Assembly (NCBI GenBank): GCA_903833275.1
Contig: CAILEP010000016.1
Coordinates: 62,001-126,000 of the forward strand
Direction: 5' to 3'
DNA: 64,000 nt
From: an uncultured Bdellovibrionales bacterium
GTDB taxonomy: Bacteria; Bdellovibrionota; Bdellovibrionia; Bdellovibrionales; UBA1609
Part shown: positions 7,569 through 64,000 of the stretch, piece by piece
Numbering within the stretch: position 1 is the stretch's first letter
How the letters are laid out: every line of letters starts with the position of its first letter
Translations under genes and position numbers: made by a program
The notes under the pieces: generated by a model
Told to the model about the DNA's origin: nothing
Database searches by the model: none
What the model saw: only the letters and a program-made list of their open reading frames with translations

Positions 7569-9124
7569 TATTTAACCTCCAAGTAAGAAAGCAGACCGTG
7601 TCGGCCGCCTTCACGACCAAAGCCGCTTTCGTTGTAGCCACCAAACGGCGAAGTCGGGTCAAATTTATTGTAAGTATTGGCCCAGATGACTCCGGCTTTT
7701 AGGCCTTGTGCCACTTTGTAAACCTTAGAACCTTTTTCTGACCAAATACCGGCTGCAAGACCGTATTGCGTGTCATTGGCTTTTGCGATGGCCTCTTGGG
7801 CCGTTCGAAAAGTCGAAATCGTCAATACCGGCCCGAAAACTTCGGTGCGGCTCAGAGTAAATGCGGCCGCCACATTATTGAAAAAACAAGGGCGATGATA
7901 ATAGCCCTTCTCAGGCAATCGAATATCGGTCGGTTCAAAAAACTCGCCACCTTCAGCTTGACCCGTGGCCACCAGACTACGAATTTTTTTAAGCTCGCCC
8001 TCTGAATTGATGGCCCCGATGTCGGTGTTTTTATCAAGAGGGTTGCCGACGCGAAGCTTTTGCATGCGGGCTTTTAATTTTTCGACAAAAACATTTGCGA
8101 TCGACTCTTCAACGAGAAGTCGCGAACCGGCACAGCAGACGTGGCCTTGGTTAAAATAAATACCATTGATCACACCCTCTACCGCCTGATCGAGCGCGGC
8201 GTCTTCGAAAATAATATGAGCCGATTTACCACCCAGCTCGAGAGTCAGGCGCTTGTTGGTGCCTGCGAGTGAGCGCATAATTATTTTGCCAACTTCAGTT
8301 GAGCCGGTGAATGCCACTTTTTTAACTTCAGAGTGATTGACCACGGCGGCACCTGTTGCCCCCGCGCCGGTAACAATATTAACAACCCCGTCTGGCAGGC
8401 CGGCTTCTTGAAAAATTTCGGCAAGCAAAAGTGCTGAAAGTGACGTGGTTTCGGCCGGCTTTAATACAACGGTATTGCCGCAGGCAAGAGCGGGGGCGAT
8501 CTTCCAGGCCGCCATTAGAAGCGGAAAGTTCCAGGGGATCACTTGGCCCACGACGCCGAGAGATGAAACCGTGCGACCCGGGGCCGCGTATTCAAGTTTA
8601 TCGGCCCAACCCGCGTGATAGAAAAAATGCGCCGCCACTAACGGCACATCGACATCGCGCGATTCGCGAATCGGCTTGCCGTTGTCGAGAGTTTCAAGCA
8701 CTGCGAGCTCGCGCGCGCGCTCTTGAATTATACGTGCAATACGAAACAGATATCGACCGCGTTCACGACCCGAAAGCTTCGACCATGTTTTGGTGTAGGC
8801 CCGGCTGGCCGCACTCATAGCCAAATCGACATCGGCACCATTGGCGTCGGCAATTTCAGCCAATTTCTCGCCCGTTGCGGGGTTCATCGTTGCAAAATAC
8901 TTTGCACTTTTTGGAGTCACAAATTTGCCATCGATAAACAATTTATTCTGCGGCTGAATTTTCACAATCTCAGTTGATTCAATTGACGGTGCGTAATCGA
9001 AATCAAAGGTGCGCCCGCTCGACTTGTCGCCGCCGGCGCCCACTTTTGTCGCAGCCGCGGCCTCGCCGTCAGCAGCCGTCTTGTCGCGCTTCACTTTGGT
9101 ATTTTCAGTTGAAGATGTGCTCAT
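7568..9124 (-). CDS. NAD(P)-dependent aldehyde dehydrogenase (catalytic subunit, ALDH16-like)
   Basis: A 518-residue full-length ALDH with a roughly 45-residue charged N-terminal extension. Visible motifs in order are IPWNFPLLM (cofactor site), FTGSTEVGK (Rossmann loop), LELGGKSAHIIF (general-base Glu) and FNQGHVCCAGSR (catalytic Cys). FGGYNESGFGREGG lies near the end. The start has AAAGGAAA just upstream. It sits between deoC and the truncated ALDH partner in one minus-strand operon. The context suggests oxidation of acetaldehyde released by deoxyribose-phosphate aldolase to acetate; this substrate is inferred, not visible in the protein. Confidence 0.9.
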   Translation of the reverse strand: MSTSSTENTKVKRDKTAADGEAAAATKVGAGGDKSSGRTFDFDYAPSIESTEIVKIQPQNKLFIDGKFVTPKSAKYFATMNPATGEKLAEIADANGADVDLAMSAASRAYTKTWSKLSGRERGRYLFRIARIIQERARELAVLETLDNGKPIRESRDVDVPLVAAHFFYHAGWADKLEYAAPGRTVSSLGVVGQVIPWNFPLLMAAWKIAPALACGNTVVLKPAETTSLSALLLAEIFQEAGLPDGVVNIVTGAGATGAAVVNHSEVKKVAFTGSTEVGKIIMRSLAGTNKRLTLELGGKSAHIIFEDAALDQAVEGVINGIYFNQGHVCCAGSRLLVEESIANVFVEKLKARMQKLRVGNPLDKNTDIGAINSEGELKKIRSLVATGQAEGGEFFEPTDIRLPEKGYYHRPCFFNNVAAAFTLSRTEVFGPVLTISTFRTAQEAIAKANDTQYGLAAGIWSEKGSKVYKVAQGLKAGVIWANTYNKFDPTSPFGGYNESGFGREGGRHGLLSYLEVK

Positions 9125-9139
9125 TTAATTTCCTTTTCT

Positions 9140-10129
9140 TTAATCGAGAGAAAAAACTTTATCGTAATAGTAACGGCCAGTGTGTTCTTTAAAAATCTGT
9201 TTCAACAAATCATTAACTAATACACTCGCGCCAAAACGAAAAAGATCGGGAGTCAACCATTCGGCCCCGACCGTTTCTTTCACCATGCAAAGATATTGAA
9301 TAGCTTGTTTTGCCGTGCGAATGCCGCCCGCGGGCTTCATGCCCACTTTCTTGCCGGTTTTCACGTAGTGATCTTGAATGGCCTGCAACATAACTAAGGT
9401 CACGGGCAAGGTCGCAGCTGGCGTCACTTTGCCTGTTGATGTTTTAATAAAATCGCCGCCAGCTTCAATGGCGATATCTGACGCCAAGCGAACGCGGTCA
9501 TACGACCCAAGTTCGCCGGTTTCAAGAATCACTTTAAGATGGGCCTCGCCACAGGCTTTTTTGATTTCAACGATCTCATCAAAAACTGTTTGATAGTCGC
9601 CCGACAGAAATGCTCCGCGATTGATCACCATATCGATCTCGTGCGCGCCTTGCTCAACAGCAAATTTGGTATCAATAATCTTTGCTTCAAGCGGGCCCTG
9701 CCCTGATGGGAAGGCCGTTGCCACGGATGCAATTTTAATATTTGTACCCTTCAACGCTTTGGCCGCCACGGCCACAAGTGACGGGTACACACAAACCGCC
9801 GCAACAGACGGAATCACCAACGCCTTGCCCGCTGCTTTATCAGTCAGCATCTCAGGTGTGGCCGGAAATCGCGCCTTACCACAAAGCTGAATCACCTTGC
9901 CGGGGGTGTCAGCGCCCTCAAGTGTCGTCAAATCACACATGCTGAGTGCGAGATTTAACACCGCAAGTTTCGATTGTTTTTTTACGCTGCGTTTGGTGAA
10001 AAAATCGGCGCGCTCGTTGGCACCCACTTCATCAATTTTGCGCGCCCCCGCGATGATCGCGGCGACGGCTGCCGAAACTGCACCGTCCGCTGGGGCTGCA
10101 TAGACCCCACCTGCGGGTTTAGATTTCAT
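9140..10129 (-). CDS. deoC: Deoxyribose-phosphate aldolase
   Basis: Class I aldolase that splits 2-deoxyribose 5-phosphate into glyceraldehyde 3-phosphate and acetaldehyde. The start at 10129 is chosen because AAAGGG lies just upstream; in-frame ATGs at 10150 and 10162 are possible but poorly spaced from any ribosome site. The 329-residue product belongs to the longer DERA type. It contains DMVINRGAFLSGDY, KVILETGEL and GGDFIKTSTGK (with the Schiff-base Lys), and later GMKPAGGIRT with the second active-site Lys. It is followed by two aldehyde dehydrogenase genes that could remove the acetaldehyde, and is preceded by a 450-base non-coding leader region. Confidence 0.9.
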   Translation of the reverse strand: MKSKPAGGVYAAPADGAVSAAVAAIIAGARKIDEVGANERADFFTKRSVKKQSKLAVLNLALSMCDLTTLEGADTPGKVIQLCGKARFPATPEMLTDKAAGKALVIPSVAAVCVYPSLVAVAAKALKGTNIKIASVATAFPSGQGPLEAKIIDTKFAVEQGAHEIDMVINRGAFLSGDYQTVFDEIVEIKKACGEAHLKVILETGELGSYDRVRLASDIAIEAGGDFIKTSTGKVTPAATLPVTLVMLQAIQDHYVKTGKKVGMKPAGGIRTAKQAIQYLCMVKETVGAEWLTPDLFRFGASVLVNDLLKQIFKEHTGRYYYDKVFSLD

Positions 10130-10289
10130 AGTCCCTTTTTCAGTAATCATTTTTAGTGCCATCCTGCTAATGAGTTTAGACAGTCCCTGCTGAAACTAAT
10201 GCCCTATTGGCACCCTCGCTGTCAGCAGCAGCAAACAGTAGGCGCCACAATAGCAGAAATACGAGTATTTTTCGCCTGTTAGTTTTGTG

Positions 10290-10515
10290 ACAAGGCGGTA
10301 AATTCTTCTGGTTTTTGGGGCTCATTGCCAGCCAGAACCGTGTAATTTCATTAGGAGGCTGTTTCCGTAGCGAAATACCCTATGGGTGGGTGGGTTCTTC
10401 TTTTCGTGGAATATTTGGGGATAATAACAGTTTCAGTTCACAGACGGCAGCCCACAGTAGCGGGACAGTTGCCGAAACCTGTTGCGGAGGCCGAGACCCG
10501 GTCTAATTAATTATT
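10290..10515 (-). ncRNA. Possible structured leader RNA upstream of deoC (unidentified)
   Basis: The 455-base gap between deoC and msrA has no convincing gene. Within it lie local hairpins: CCCGC/GUGGG at 10451-10464, closed by a G-U pair only if the minus strand is transcribed, and a 9-pair helix with a 3-base bulge joining 10444-10452 to 10357-10368. Minus-strand transcription would make this a 5' leader of deoC. A short stretch (CCCGCTACTGT on the minus strand) resembles the core of cobalamin riboswitches, but the rest of that consensus was not found. I cannot name the RNA family, and a plus-strand RNA is not excluded. The remaining 75 bases to msrA hold nothing recognisable. Confidence 0.3.
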
Positions 10516-10584
10516 CTCAAAAAGAAGAAAGGTGATCGAAGAGTTCGGCCCTTGCGGCGACTGCGCGAACCGCGCGTCTTAGAA

Positions 10585-11331
10585 TCACTCGTGATCGCTA
10601 TGACCCCAAACCTCTTTAAGCCGCGCATCGCGACCACAGCCATTTCGATAGTATTTGTAACGAATGGGGTTCTTCGAATAGTAGGCCTGATGATAGTCTT
10701 CGGCCGGGTAAAAATTCGTGAATGGCTTCGCGATAGTGGCCACTTCGCCCTTTACTTTTGCGGTATTTTTCACCACTTCGTTTAATGATTTTTCATACTC
10801 CACTTTTTCAGAGTTAGATTTATAGAAAACCGCGCTGGTGTATTGCTCAGCTTTGTCGCAAAACTGCCCGCGCGAGTCGAATGGGTCAACGTTATGCCAA
10901 AAAGTTTCGAGAAGTTTTCGGTAAGAAATCTTTTGCGGATTATAAGTGACTTCAATCGCCTCACGGTGACCTGTCCCTCCAGCCGAGGTTTCTTCGTAGG
11001 TGGGGTTTTCTTTGGTGCCGCCGGCATAGCCAACGCGGGTCGAGATAACGCCTTGGCTCTTCAGTTTATCAAATGGGGGCTGCATGCACCAAAAACAACC
11101 GCCGGCGAAAACGGCCGTCTCGACCGACGGCAGGGCCCCTGCAGTTTTGGGCGCGACCTTCGATGCTGTTGTCGCAGACGCCGCTTTTGTCGGCGATGTC
11201 ACGGCGCCTTTTTTACCTTTGGCGGCGTCAGTGGTAACCCCGACCACCTCGGCAGCATGACCTTGCGCTGACAATAGAATCGCCAAACTAAACGCGGCTG
11301 ATGTTAAAAACGACCAAATTAATTTACCCAT
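10585..11331 (-). CDS. msrA: Peptide-methionine (S)-S-oxide reductase, exported
   Basis: A 248-residue protein with an N-terminal hydrophobic signal (ending near AQGHAAE) and a Lys/Ala/Thr-rich linker, then the MsrA domain from about residue 72. The domain shows AVFAGGCFWCMQPPFD (catalytic Cys), VGYAGGTKENPTYE and GTGHREAIEVTYNP, with DSRGQFCDKAEQYTSAVF further on. It reduces methionine-S-sulfoxide in proteins; the signal sequence places it in the periplasm or envelope. No MsrB domain is fused. AGGGG precedes the start. The linker between signal and domain is longer than usual. Confidence 0.92.
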   Translation of the reverse strand: MGKLIWSFLTSAAFSLAILLSAQGHAAEVVGVTTDAAKGKKGAVTSPTKAASATTASKVAPKTAGALPSVETAVFAGGCFWCMQPPFDKLKSQGVISTRVGYAGGTKENPTYEETSAGGTGHREAIEVTYNPQKISYRKLLETFWHNVDPFDSRGQFCDKAEQYTSAVFYKSNSEKVEYEKSLNEVVKNTAKVKGEVATIAKPFTNFYPAEDYHQAYYSKNPIRYKYYRNGCGRDARLKEVWGHSDHE

Positions 11332-11480
11332 CGCAACCCCTTATTAGATAACACACCACGAAAGTTGATTAGCAAGACCTTCGCATTAGTCTCATTAAGG
11401 TTACCTCGACAGTCAATATTTGACCGATAAAATGATTGAACCTAGATTGGCCGTAGGCAGAGGGCCCAGCTACAAATATG

Positions 11481-59688: not shown

Positions 59689-61062
59689 TTAGGCTTCGGC
59701 CTTCAGCAGCGGCAAGGTCATTGTTACGAGCGTGAAGCGCTCGGGCTTTGACTCGAGTTCGATTTGCCCGCCTGCGGCCTGGACCACATTATAGGCATAG
59801 GCAAGCCCCAAGCCCGAGCCCTCGGGCTTACCATAGGTGAACCCATAACGACCGACGTTGCCAATTATCTCAGCCGGGATACCGCGACCGTTATCGCGAA
59901 GGGTGATAAGAACGGCATCGGCTAATACTTCAACTTTGACTTCGATTTCGCCCTCGCGGGCCGGGCCGCTCTCGATTGCATCGAGGCTATTTTGCAGCAA
60001 ATTCGAAACGGCGCGAGAAAAATCGGCTTCAAAAACCCGCGCTCGCAAAACAGCGTTCGGGGTCTCTATTTTAAATTGCACCGTCTTGCCACCCGAGCCA
60101 TCGTTAGCGACGAGACGCTTCTCTTCGACTATTGCGCGCAATACTCCACCGAGATCGGCAATGTAGAGCCGGTCTTGGGCCGCCAAATCAACGCGCGATT
60201 TCTTCAACATCGTATCGGCGATGTCATTGATGCGCTTGCTACTCGCTTCGATTAATTGCGCGATCTCATCTGAAGAGCCTGCTAATTTTCGGGTCGCCAG
60301 GTTCAGGGCCGAGATCGGAGAGCGAATGTCATGGGCCACCTGCCGCGCCATCTTAAAGGCATCTTCTTTTTTAGCGAAATCAGATTGCTTCAACTTGAGC
60401 GTGCTAACCTCACCCACCAGTTGGTTAATCTCGGCGTCACGCTCTTTCAAAATATTATTAAGCGCCTGCCTCGAGTCGAATTCATTGCGCTGAAAGCGAT
60501 TGAAGTTTCGATTGGCGAGAGAAAATATTACGATAATGCAAATTACGTTGCAAACATTCGTCCACATGATATCGGCGCCAATGTGGTTAAAAAAACGGTA
60601 GCTTGCCACTAGGGCAAACGGAGTATAGCAAATTGCACAAATCGAGTAATAATACGATCGAGGCATCGAAATAAATGCAAAAGCGCCAGTCACAACAACA
60701 AGCATCGCTGCCGGATAGACATTGATCTCATCAAGAATTAAATAAGCAAGAAGATAAATGTTGAATGAAAACCACGCAACAACCACAAGGTACCGATTTA
60801 GAAATTGCCGTTTATTTTTCGCCGATGTAATGTACTTAACCAATCCAAAAACTGAGACCGCCAATATCGTGCGAATGCCCAGCAAGAGCCAGATCTTCTC
60901 TTTGGCGTAAATGTAATCACTAATCACAAAAAAATAGAGCAACGGCGCGACGAACTTCTGTAGGCCCTCTCGCAGGGCAACTCTCGAGTTTTCGAGCCAT
61001 TCTTGATCTAAACTTTGCGAAGGTCGTTGCACAGAGATTCCAACCCTTTCTAATTGGTCCAA
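59689..61062 (-). CDS. Membrane sensor histidine kinase
   Basis: A 457-residue kinase with about six hydrophobic segments in residues 35-190 (VAPLLYFFVISDYIYAKEKI and so on) and no recognisable sensor domain. A coiled linker (DAEINQLVGEVSTLKLKQSD) and HisKA (ARQVAHDIRSPISALNLATR, phospho-His about 243) follow, with an HATPase at the end (NLLQNSLDAIESG, DNGRGIPAEI, SGLGLAYAYNVVQAAGGQ). The start is probably TTG at 61062, with GTG at 61032 as an alternative. No response regulator is adjacent except PhoB, which has its own kinase. A stand-alone sensor; the target is unknown. Confidence 0.85.
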   Translation of the reverse strand: MDQLERVGISVQRPSQSLDQEWLENSRVALREGLQKFVAPLLYFFVISDYIYAKEKIWLLLGIRTILAVSVFGLVKYITSAKNKRQFLNRYLVVVAWFSFNIYLLAYLILDEINVYPAAMLVVVTGAFAFISMPRSYYYSICAICYTPFALVASYRFFNHIGADIMWTNVCNVICIIVIFSLANRNFNRFQRNEFDSRQALNNILKERDAEINQLVGEVSTLKLKQSDFAKKEDAFKMARQVAHDIRSPISALNLATRKLAGSSDEIAQLIEASSKRINDIADTMLKKSRVDLAAQDRLYIADLGGVLRAIVEEKRLVANDGSGGKTVQFKIETPNAVLRARVFEADFSRAVSNLLQNSLDAIESGPAREGEIEVKVEVLADAVLITLRDNGRGIPAEIIGNVGRYGFTYGKPEGSGLGLAYAYNVVQAAGGQIELESKPERFTLVTMTLPLLKAEA

Positions 61063-61567
61063 AACTAGACCGCATTGGCGTCAATGCGCTAATATGATTG
61101 GGCCCAACAAACACTGAGCCCATCGGTGCCCGTCGAAATTGAGTTTAATATAGTATTTCAAGATAAAAATTGGACCTTGGTGAATAAGCCGTAAGGCAAG
61201 AGGTCTTTTGAGGCCAAATATACAAGTGGGCGACCCATGACCCAGCAAGCTAATTTTGCTGCCATTGCCAGCGCTGATGGTGTGTGAGTGAAGGTAAACC
61301 CAAGCCAAATTTCCATCTAGACCAAAGTGAGCCCGGTCATTAATAAGTTTGGCAGCCATGGCACAAAAGGCCTGAAACTAATTGCAGGTGGCTAGCAGGT
61401 TTTGCCAAAACTAACGTTAAAACCAAAAAACAACTCGGTTAAACTGTACCATCCCAACATTCTAAGTTTTGCCCCCTAGAGAATTGTCTAGTTATTCGCC
61501 GCGACATTTGAATTCACGTGTTTTATTCCGATGTTAAATAGGTAGTGGTCCGCTTTGAGGAGGCAAC
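61063..61567. other. 505-base intergenic region, no gene recognised
   Basis: A region that becomes AT-richer towards the right. Open stretches on the minus strand here lack a ribosome site, membrane or motif features and are not accepted as genes. It must hold the promoter of the FAAL-type gene; CTAGAGAATTGTCTAG at 61480-61495 is an interrupted inverted repeat of CTAGA/TCTAG. Nothing else is recognisable. Confidence 0.6.
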
Positions 61568-64000
61568 ATGAGTTCGTCGGCGCTTAATAATCTTTATCGA
61601 AAGAAAACACTTAATGAAGTGTTGCATGCGCATTCGGATGAAATTTCTGATAAAATTGCAGTCACTGTTTTTGACGCAGAAACCTCAACAGACTTATCTT
61701 ATGCTGAAATAATTCGCTCGGGCCTAAGGGCCGCAGAACTAATAAATAAATTTACAAAACCTGGTGATCGCGTTCTTATCGTAATGCCAACAAGTGTTGA
61801 TTTTATTTCAGCATTTTTTGGTTGTCTTTTTTCTGGTCGAATCGCTGTACCGTTGCCGGTTGAAAAGCCCCGAAATGGTATCTCGCGATCAGAAAATGTA
61901 ATTTCAGACTGTTCACCAGTGCTTGCAATTTTCAAAAGCGCTGAAGATCTTGAGAAAATGAAATCGGGTTTTTCTAAAGTAAAATCAATTATCTTAGACG
62001 AGCAAATTAAAGAGATACCTCAAGTGCCAAGTGACTTAGATTACTTAAATATATCCGAGAATCAAATTGCATTTATTCAATATACTTCTGGCTCTACAAG
62101 CGCGCCAAAAGGAGTGGCATTAACTCACAAAAATTTAATCGCCAATATAAAGATGATTCAGCAGGCGATGAAAATATCTAGTGAAGAGCGAGTGGTTTCT
62201 TGGTTGCCGTTGCATCACGATATGGGCCTCATAGGTAACTTATTAAGCTTTCTGTGTTGCGGCGCTTTTACAGCATTGTACCCATACCAAGAATTTGCCC
62301 GGTCTCCAATGTCATGGCTTTTAGCAATGTCAAAATATAGAGCAACTCTATCTGGTGCACCGACATTTGCATTTGAGCTAATTAACAAAAAGCTAGATTT
62401 GCAAAGACTAAAGGATGTCGACCTAAAACCAATGAGACTTCTATATTGCGGCAGTGAAAGACTGGTGCCGGCGACTATATCTAAATTTTATAGTGCATTG
62501 GCGCCTATTGGCCTTTCGACTAAATCTTTCTTCCCCTGCTATGGGATGGCCGAGGCGTCTTTATTTGTGTCTGGACGATTCTGCGAACCGCAAATTTTGC
62601 AATTGCCAGTCGAATCTGGCGCCGAGTACCCGACCTGTGGCAATCTTGCAAACAATCTGTCGTTATCCGTAGCAGACGAAGAAGGTCAAGAGTGCTTTCC
62701 TGGCAAAGTTGGTGAAATTCAAATTAAAGGCACCTCTGTTACTAATGGATACTGGCGAGAAATTAAAAATAAGGTCTCTGAAAATGGTGAGGTCAAATCG
62801 GCAGAAAGCTGGTTAAAGACTGGGGATCTTGGCGCTTTAGTTGGCAATGAAATTATTATCGTGGGTAGAAAAAAGGATATCATAAAAAGCAATGGTAGAA
62901 CTCTCTATCCCGAAGACATTGAAATTCAGATTGAGCAAAATAGCCCCTGGTTATCGCCAAATTCAGTGGTTATCTTTTCGGAGGGCGATGATAACAGTCG
63001 CATTTCAGTAGTAATTGAAGTTGAAAGAACAAAAAAAGATATCCCATTTGCAGAGATATGTGGCGAAGTAAATGTTCTCGTGTCTGAATTTGGTTTGCAA
63101 AAGCCAAATATACTGTTTTTGGCACCACTAAATTTGCCAAAAACAACGAGTGGCAAAAAACAGCGTAAATTGACGGCCAAGTTACTTTCTGAAAATACTT
63201 TAAAAATAATTTGGCATGATCAACTTAATTTGGCGCCAAATGTAACTAGTGAAGATTCGGAAAGTTTGAGCAAAATTAATTTAAAATCGCTAATTGCCTA
63301 TGTTTCTAAAACTAATTTTGATCTAGCAGAAGAGCGACGTGCGATGCCTGCAGATATGCTTCTTGTAGTCAAAAACGCTGGCCTTCTTGATTTGCTTGTA
63401 AATAAAGAGTTTGGCGGCAAAGGCCTCAATTCTTTTCAATTTTCAGAAATTGGTGTGACACTGGGCCAACTTAACCTTTCGCTGGCCGCCGTGCTGGGTA
63501 TACATAATACCCTTGGTGTTCTGAGTATTCAAAATTCCAAAAATATCGAGCTGAAAAAGACCGTTCTCAGAGAGGTTGTGCAAAAGGGCTCGCTTGTTTC
63601 TTTTGCGATAAGTGAACCTGCGGCGGGTTCGAATCCGCATAAAATTGAAGCTACGGCGAAAGTGTCGGGCTCGAAGATAATTTTAAATGGTACAAAAGTT
63701 TGGATCGGCAACGCCCAATTCGCTGAGTATTTCGTTGTATTCGCAAATGAAACTTCGGCAGACAATTCATCAAAAGGCATTTCTGGGTTTTTAGTCAAAA
63801 GTGGCCAACCCGGCCTACAAGTTGGCGAAGAGCAATTGACTTTGGGCATGCGCTCTATGCCACAGTGCATGCTTCAGCTGACAAATGTTGAGGTGACAGA
63901 GGCCGACCGCTTAACAGCCCCAGGCAAGGGCCTCGAGCTTGCCTTTGAATCAATGGAGTACGCACGATTCGGGCTTGCCGCGGTAGCTTGTGGTGTGATG
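61568..64000 (+). CDS. Fatty acyl-AMP ligase / acyl-CoA dehydrogenase fusion (3' end outside the window)
   Basis: The start at 61568 has GAGGAGG upstream. The window contains the first 811 codons. Residues about 1-550 form a fatty acyl-AMP ligase (FAAL): QYTSGSTSAPKGVALTHKNL (ATP site), VVSWLPLHHDMGLIGNL, LLYCGSERLVPATI, FFPCYGMAEASLF, RKKDIIKSNGRTLYPEDIE and TTSGKKQRK. From about residue 600 an acyl-CoA dehydrogenase begins (VKNAGLLDLLVNKEFGGKGL, ISEPAAGSNPHKIEAT, LNGTKVWIGNAQFAEYFVVF). No carrier domain lies between the two. FAAL enzymes load long fatty acids on carrier proteins for lipids and lipopeptides. Codons are AT-rich compared with genes at the left, suggesting acquisition. Product and downstream genes are unknown. 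Confidence 0.88.
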   Translation, partial: MSSSALNNLYRKKTLNEVLHAHSDEISDKIAVTVFDAETSTDLSYAEIIRSGLRAAELINKFTKPGDRVLIVMPTSVDFISAFFGCLFSGRIAVPLPVEKPRNGISRSENVISDCSPVLAIFKSAEDLEKMKSGFSKVKSIILDEQIKEIPQVPSDLDYLNISENQIAFIQYTSGSTSAPKGVALTHKNLIANIKMIQQAMKISSEERVVSWLPLHHDMGLIGNLLSFLCCGAFTALYPYQEFARSPMSWLLAMSKYRATLSGAPTFAFELINKKLDLQRLKDVDLKPMRLLYCGSERLVPATISKFYSALAPIGLSTKSFFPCYGMAEASLFVSGRFCEPQILQLPVESGAEYPTCGNLANNLSLSVADEEGQECFPGKVGEIQIKGTSVTNGYWREIKNKVSENGEVKSAESWLKTGDLGALVGNEIIIVGRKKDIIKSNGRTLYPEDIEIQIEQNSPWLSPNSVVIFSEGDDNSRISVVIEVERTKKDIPFAEICGEVNVLVSEFGLQKPNILFLAPLNLPKTTSGKKQRKLTAKLLSENTLKIIWHDQLNLAPNVTSEDSESLSKINLKSLIAYVSKTNFDLAEERRAMPADMLLVVKNAGLLDLLVNKEFGGKGLNSFQFSEIGVTLGQLNLSLAAVLGIHNTLGVLSIQNSKNIELKKTVLREVVQKGSLVSFAISEPAAGSNPHKIEATAKVSGSKIILNGTKVWIGNAQFAEYFVVFANETSADNSSKGISGFLVKSGQPGLQVGEEQLTLGMRSMPQCMLQLTNVEVTEADRLTAPGKGLELAFESMEYARFGLAAVACGVM

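Follow-up and report, generated by a model that had tools for sequence, protein, structure and literature searches.

Among the signalling systems described so far, the closest to the locus presented here is Phc of Ralstonia, composed of PhcB, PhcS, PhcR and PhcQ, in which PhcS is the sensor of the methyl 3-hydroxy fatty-acid signal that PhcB produces (PMC8578825). The histidine of PhcS has been reported at residue 230 (PMC11960443), and the arginine changed in PhcB R22C is described as conserved in Paraburkholderia (PMC6989110). Within the Pseudomonadota surveyed, the phc cluster has been reported to be restricted to Betaproteobacteria, with Hydrogenophaga named among the phc-bearing genera (PMC10653808). 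A second relevant system is the CqsS-Rv1625c chimera, in which a quorum receptor with six transmembrane helices (six-TM) drives a class III cyclase (PMC4821796). Ligand control of a cyclase through a quorum-sensor domain has been obtained in artificial chimeras (PMC4821796, PMC12414865), and the role of the six-TM domains in adenylyl cyclases is an acknowledged open question.

The locus lies at the end of the window, that is, the whole stretch of 64,000 nucleotides that was analysed (C16:62001-126000), in a source genome of 3.08 Mb from an uncultured Bdellovibrionales bacterium. It is a three-gene operon, A-B-C, with gene A first, and gene D is divergent from it. We consider it moderately probable that A-B-C was acquired horizontally and encodes both the production of a fatty-acyl methyl-ester signal and a cyclase that serves as its receptor. 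The features are as follows, with positions beyond 64000 given as window equivalents.

59689..61062, minus strand: gene D, a histidine kinase, divergently oriented, with a membrane part that the sensor profile of gene C recognizes
61063..61567, no strand: AT-rich, divergent intergenic region of 505 bases, the presumed promoter region of the A-B-C operon
61568-65104 (in-window part 61568..64000), plus strand: gene A, FAAL-ACAD-ACP, 1178 aa
65117-66658 (L002:5117-6658), plus strand: gene B, PilZ-like domain and PhcB-superfamily SAM methyltransferase, 513 aa
66651-68084 (L002:6651-8084), plus strand: gene C, six-TM sensor and class III cyclase, 477 aa

Genes B and C lie beyond the end of the window, and the contig sequence past 64000 gives a gap of 12 bp from A to B and an overlap of 8 bases between B and C. 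On the opposite strand, gene D and then phoB-phoR-phoU-like genes lie 5' of the operon, while 3' of gene C are a histidine kinase, a periplasmic receptor, an alcohol dehydrogenase and a receiver with a cyclic-nucleotide-binding domain, all unrelated to A-B-C. Promoter and terminator scans returned counts about equal to those from shuffled sequence.

The protein encoded by gene B matches PilZ and Methyltransf_31 in Pfam, both below their cut-offs. Its AlphaFold model (pLDDT 82) has a six-stranded N-domain (42-119), followed by helices and a class I methyltransferase, and the nearest solved structures to the model are largely O-methyltransferases; a sequence search of the PDB gave no significant match. 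Compared with PhcB-like proteins, it is 25-27% identical over ~360 aa (E=6e-35 for Hydrogenophaga, 2e-36 for Paraburkholderia), which places it by sequence in the PhcB superfamily of SAM methyltransferases. In several loci, homologs of gene B are followed by a six-TM histidine kinase and then by response regulators. The loci of Hydrogenophaga (L117) and Paraburkholderia (L033) can be tied to the Phc system, because the former has the order methyltransferase, kinase, receiver-kinase, receiver, which is that of phcBSRQ, with the kinase histidine at residue 230, and the latter has a methyltransferase with Arg at position 22, as read from the sequence. Other members of the superfamily have other settings. 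Second PhcB-like copies lacking a sensor gene occur in a conserved neighbourhood in Bdellovibrio-like genomes (L147, L148, L149), and related methyltransferase domains lie inside or beside large multidomain genes on an Enterobacter ludwigii plasmid (L145 9628-12765), where the large gene is a type I PKS, and in G276 (L152), a hint that other pathways may also form methyl esters.

In gene C, the cyclase domain scores 41.8 bits against PF00211, with a cut-off of 21.9, and both the metal-binding residues (D245, D289) and the transition-state residues (N366, R370) are present, as expected from the sequence of a class III nucleotide cyclase. At the substrate-specifying sites, the Thr is present and the Lys, retained in most relatives, is replaced by Asn285, so the product and the activity of the enzyme are uncertain. 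The model, in which six membrane helices lead into a class III cyclase, matches CyaC well and full-length Rv1625c/Cya and human AC9 more loosely. Cyclases of the Bdellovibrio bacteriovorus type (L028, L022, L029) may be weak or altered, because their transition-state Asn is replaced by Pro (Leu in one). As for a reader of the gene C product, a possible candidate is the receiver fused to a cyclic-nucleotide-binding domain at L002:14635-15447 (window-equivalent 74635-75447, minus strand), ~6.5 kb 3' of the cyclase.

The membrane part of gene C was followed with a sensor profile built from five Bdellovibrionales cyclases, using their membrane parts and no kinase, and run on 916 ORFs from 80 named loci. 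This cyclase-only profile matched all 46 kinases encoded directly after a methyltransferase and 5 of the 57 other kinases. As these five and one further match sit in loci where the ORF caller had missed the methyltransferase, no match is clearly independent of a methyltransferase. The sensor therefore travels with the methyltransferase whatever the output domain, and the sensor of gene C is, on these matches, homologous to that of PhcS-like kinases. Matches also include the Paraburkholderia kinase (4e-11) and gene D (3e-13), and a YYAG-like motif, sought with a loose pattern, is common in the sensors (51/66). Gene D, which has a weak MASE8 match and no full-length match in 60 relatives, is possibly a second receptor; its membership of the system is uncertain.

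The pairing of methyltransferase and sensor is near-obligate. Among order-level relatives that possess gene B, a homolog of gene C, or of its membrane part, lies directly downstream, and across 369 Bdellovibrionota genomes the methyltransferase gave 47 matches in 44 genomes, 40 of them with a sensor-cyclase within 200 bp downstream. The remainder includes one match with a sensor-cyclase below threshold and one with a convergent sensor gene; the cases that break the pattern are, in four Bdellovibrio-like genomes (three of them read), a second copy of the methyltransferase and, in G276, a pair next to a large gene. Some sensor-cyclases have no methyltransferase, and loci of Verrucomicrobia, Myxococcales and Burkholderiales mostly have kinases in place of cyclases. 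These distributions bear on the strongest competitor of the signal reading, that genes B and C do not serve quorum sensing at all, gene B modifying a membrane lipid or another acid and gene C responding to membrane state or to an endogenous lipid. It draws on the methyltransferase family being far wider than the proven Phc systems, on the existence of both sensor-cyclases without methyltransferase and methyltransferases without sensor, and on the sensorless second copies in Bdellovibrio. However, the methyltransferase is tightly linked to one sensor family across several phyla and with two output domains, and the linked loci include the phcBSRQ order, which makes this explanation unlikely.

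With regard to origin, the sequence-only reading had described gene A and the 505 bases upstream of it as AT-richer than the rest of the window, and this proved correct. The in-window part of gene A has 41.3% GC, the lowest 2.4-kb window elsewhere in the window being 46.3%, and the upstream gap has 44.4%, at the 3.6th percentile of the window. For the complete genes, GC is 41.8% in A, 42.0% in B and 41.1% in C versus 49.8 +/- 2.9% in the 91 other genes within 140 kb (z of -2.7 to -3.0), and in codon-use deviance A, B and C rank 4th, 1st and 3rd, respectively, of 46 long genes. Since gene D is native in composition (48.7% GC), the AT-rich island consists of A-B-C without the upstream gene, and gene D was ruled out as part of the import. 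In the trees of both B and C, this genome groups with G048, of another family, and G014, of another genus, apart from its same-genus relatives. The search for mobile-element borders at the island found no tRNA and no informative repeats; phoR, on one side, is conserved in the genus, in which the gene picked on the opposite side has no match. Horizontal gain, at which the same reading had hinted and for which it proposed comparing GC content and codon use, is well supported by both measures, with the 91 neighbouring genes as the GC reference, by the placement of B and C in their trees and by the absence of gene A from the 140 other genomes of the order (no match at E<=1e-60). The fusion in gene A is not a core gene conserved in the relatives.

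The fusion itself was correctly recognized from the window, in which the ORF from 61568 is open through 64000, as a FAAL-type adenylating enzyme joined to a dehydrogenase. Pfam places the FAAL at aa 27-548, as an AMP-binding domain (203.6 bits) with a FAAL-type C-terminal domain, and the acyl-CoA dehydrogenase (ACAD) at 587-927. Fatty-acyl-AMP ligases make up most of the best NCBIfam models (PRK09192, FadD32 and other FAALs), all below curated cut-offs, and as far as sequence can tell this part of gene A is an AMP-binding fold of the FAAL type. The accompanying claim that no carrier is present did not hold; the window edge had cut the gene, which in the extended contig reaches a stop at 65104 and ends in a phosphopantetheine carrier (ACP, 1102-1159). 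The ACAD retains the FEG motif with the catalytic Glu, and the ACP the DSL serine motif.

This architecture is not new, as it is found in single proteins of Burkholderia, Gloeocapsa and another Bdellovibrionota genome. At E<=1e-80, the 369 genomes of the phylum hold one other FAAL-ACAD-ACP protein (37% identical to A) and one FAAL-only match. The proteins of Burkholderia stagnalis, Gloeocapsa and G317 have the domain order of gene A and 31-37% identity over FAAL-ACAD; they adjoin KAS III genes, a type I PKS, and a hexapeptide-repeat membrane protein with a membrane cyclase-like gene, respectively, and none has a PhcB-type methyltransferase beside it. Downstream of the 1256-aa protein of G317 (L143 10303-17093) come a hypothetical protein, the hexapeptide-repeat membrane protein and another membrane protein; the last matches a cyclase weakly, and the sensor profile does not recognize its membrane part. 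In Acinetobacter (L038), which we take to be the acinetin 505 cluster, tblastn found FAAL and then ACAD in the order of gene A, in two pieces rather than one protein, where they presumably serve an NRPS. No FAAL or ACAD adjoins the other PhcB-like methyltransferases in 13 relatives and the named loci.

The sequence-only reading had further proposed that gene A starts a lipid, polyene or lipopeptide assembly line, for which there was no support, as the carrier is already fused and what follows is a methyltransferase, a sensor-cyclase and unrelated genes. Extension downstream gave the carrier, inside gene A, and no ketosynthase or condensation module on the contig; the ORF list holds no giant modular protein over 78 kb past the start of gene A. 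Genome-wide, the ketosynthase matches comprise one clear gene and two weak, partial cases, and a single protein has a condensation domain; as the matches to PF00668 and PF00109 all lie on contigs C12, C21 and C28 and none on C16, a FAAL-led assembly line beside gene A was rejected. The expectation that the part then out of view would be the interesting one was met by genes B and C, and the stop at 65104 is followed by these two operon genes instead of housekeeping genes. A smaller version of the idea is that gene A starts a short lipopeptide or polyketide pathway with its partner elsewhere, for example the adenylation-carrier-condensation protein encoded by an unlinked, AT-rich gene of contig C21, with gene B methylating the product and gene C being incidental. 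FAAL, ACAD and ACP often start such pathways, the FAAL-ACAD-ACP of Gloeocapsa does adjoin a type I PKS, and an A-PCP-C protein is encoded once in this genome, in AT-rich DNA (40.6% GC). Against this, the contig of gene A is devoid of ketosynthase and condensation domains, and the pairing of B and C is established in relatives with neither A nor such a cluster around the pair; we regard this pathway as decidedly improbable.

The C21 locus just mentioned (L170, G000:C21:50000-68000) is a second small biosynthetic island, unlinked to A-B-C. Its adenylation-carrier-condensation protein (ORF 8211-11381, 1056 aa, DNA of 40.6% GC) lies beside transposase-like genes, and its neighbours include one FkbH-type HAD-like protein and one membrane acyltransferase-like protein.

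In the lipid-signal reading that we prefer, a chain from signal to response can be proposed from homology and gene order. Gene A would activate a free fatty acid to acyl-AMP and pass it to the fused ACP, where the dehydrogenase domain of the protein would introduce a 2,3 double bond into the acyl chain. Gene B, perhaps gated by its own PilZ-like domain, would then methylate the carboxylate of the released acid with SAM to yield a diffusible methyl ester. The six-TM domain of gene C would bind the ester and alter the output of the cyclase, so that the signal becomes an intracellular cyclic nucleotide. By analogy with PhcB and PhcS, it is thus gene B that would make the fatty-acyl methyl ester and gene C that would sense it and produce the cyclic nucleotide, and gene A would be an accessory that tailors the acyl chain, giving a different ester in this lineage. 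The role of gene A is the least certain step, because the operon contains no thioesterase to free the acid from the ACP and because other methyltransferase-cyclase pairs have no gene A nearby; both findings also count against the signal reading as a whole, as do the low identity of gene B to the PhcB-like proteins and the Asn of gene C at the Lys site. That gene A instead destroys or recycles the signal, by re-activating and oxidising the acid released from the ester, would agree with ACADs being the first enzymes of beta-oxidation and with other pairs managing without A, but is very improbable, as a dedicated fused ACP fits biosynthesis better than CoA-based oxidation and A opens the operon.

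More tentatively, and with rather less confidence than for the operon itself, lipid-autoinducer-gated cyclases, each beside its own synthase, may form a natural family widespread in predatory and related Bdellovibrionota, of which one lineage recruited a FAAL-desaturase-carrier protein for an unsaturated signal. A methyltransferase-cyclase pair is carried by B. bacteriovorus strain kdesi (L055) and, at 2.98 Mb, by G062, which we take to be B. bacteriovorus HD100. The HD100 pair is probably Bd3071-Bd3072. The annotated cyclases of HD100 include bd3072 (PMC6717892), and the 'regulatory protein' Bd3071 is substantially down-regulated in periplasmic predation (PMC12546842). Since HD100 probably has the pair, the system can be tested in culture. 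If the reading is true, Bdellovibrio-type predators own a lipid signal that feeds a cyclic nucleotide pathway, and Phc-like signalling extends well beyond Betaproteobacteria. Gene A would in addition offer a testable idea of how signal chemistry changes within one lineage. In a limited literature search, which is not proof of absence, no Phc-like or cyclase-linked quorum system turned up for Bdellovibrio, and the pairing of methyltransferase and sensor-cyclase, common to many relatives, has, as far as we found, apparently not been described previously as a signalling system.

Set against the known systems, A-B-C shares with Phc a methyltransferase that belongs to the PhcB superfamily, has a PilZ-like N-domain and is encoded directly upstream of a homologous six-TM sensor gene. 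It differs in that the output of gene C is a class III cyclase and that of Phc a histidine kinase, in that a FAAL-ACAD-ACP precedes the methyltransferase, and in its occurrence in Bdellovibrionota, whereas the phc cluster has been reported from Betaproteobacteria. The operon contains no response regulator of the PhcR/PhcQ kind, and the kinase with a related sensor that adjoins it, gene D, is of native GC. As A-B-C, having neither kinase nor response regulator, falls outside the strict definition of Phc, what we propose is a Phc-like mode of action and not membership of Phc. With the CqsS-Rv1625c chimera, gene C shares a six-TM receptor for a lipophilic autoinducer, predicted in gene C, joined to a class III cyclase. 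The chimera is artificial and carries the CqsS sensor, whereas gene C is natural, has a PhcS-like sensor and adjoins the predicted synthase of its ligand, a combination that would provide a direct test of the role of six-TM domains in cyclases.
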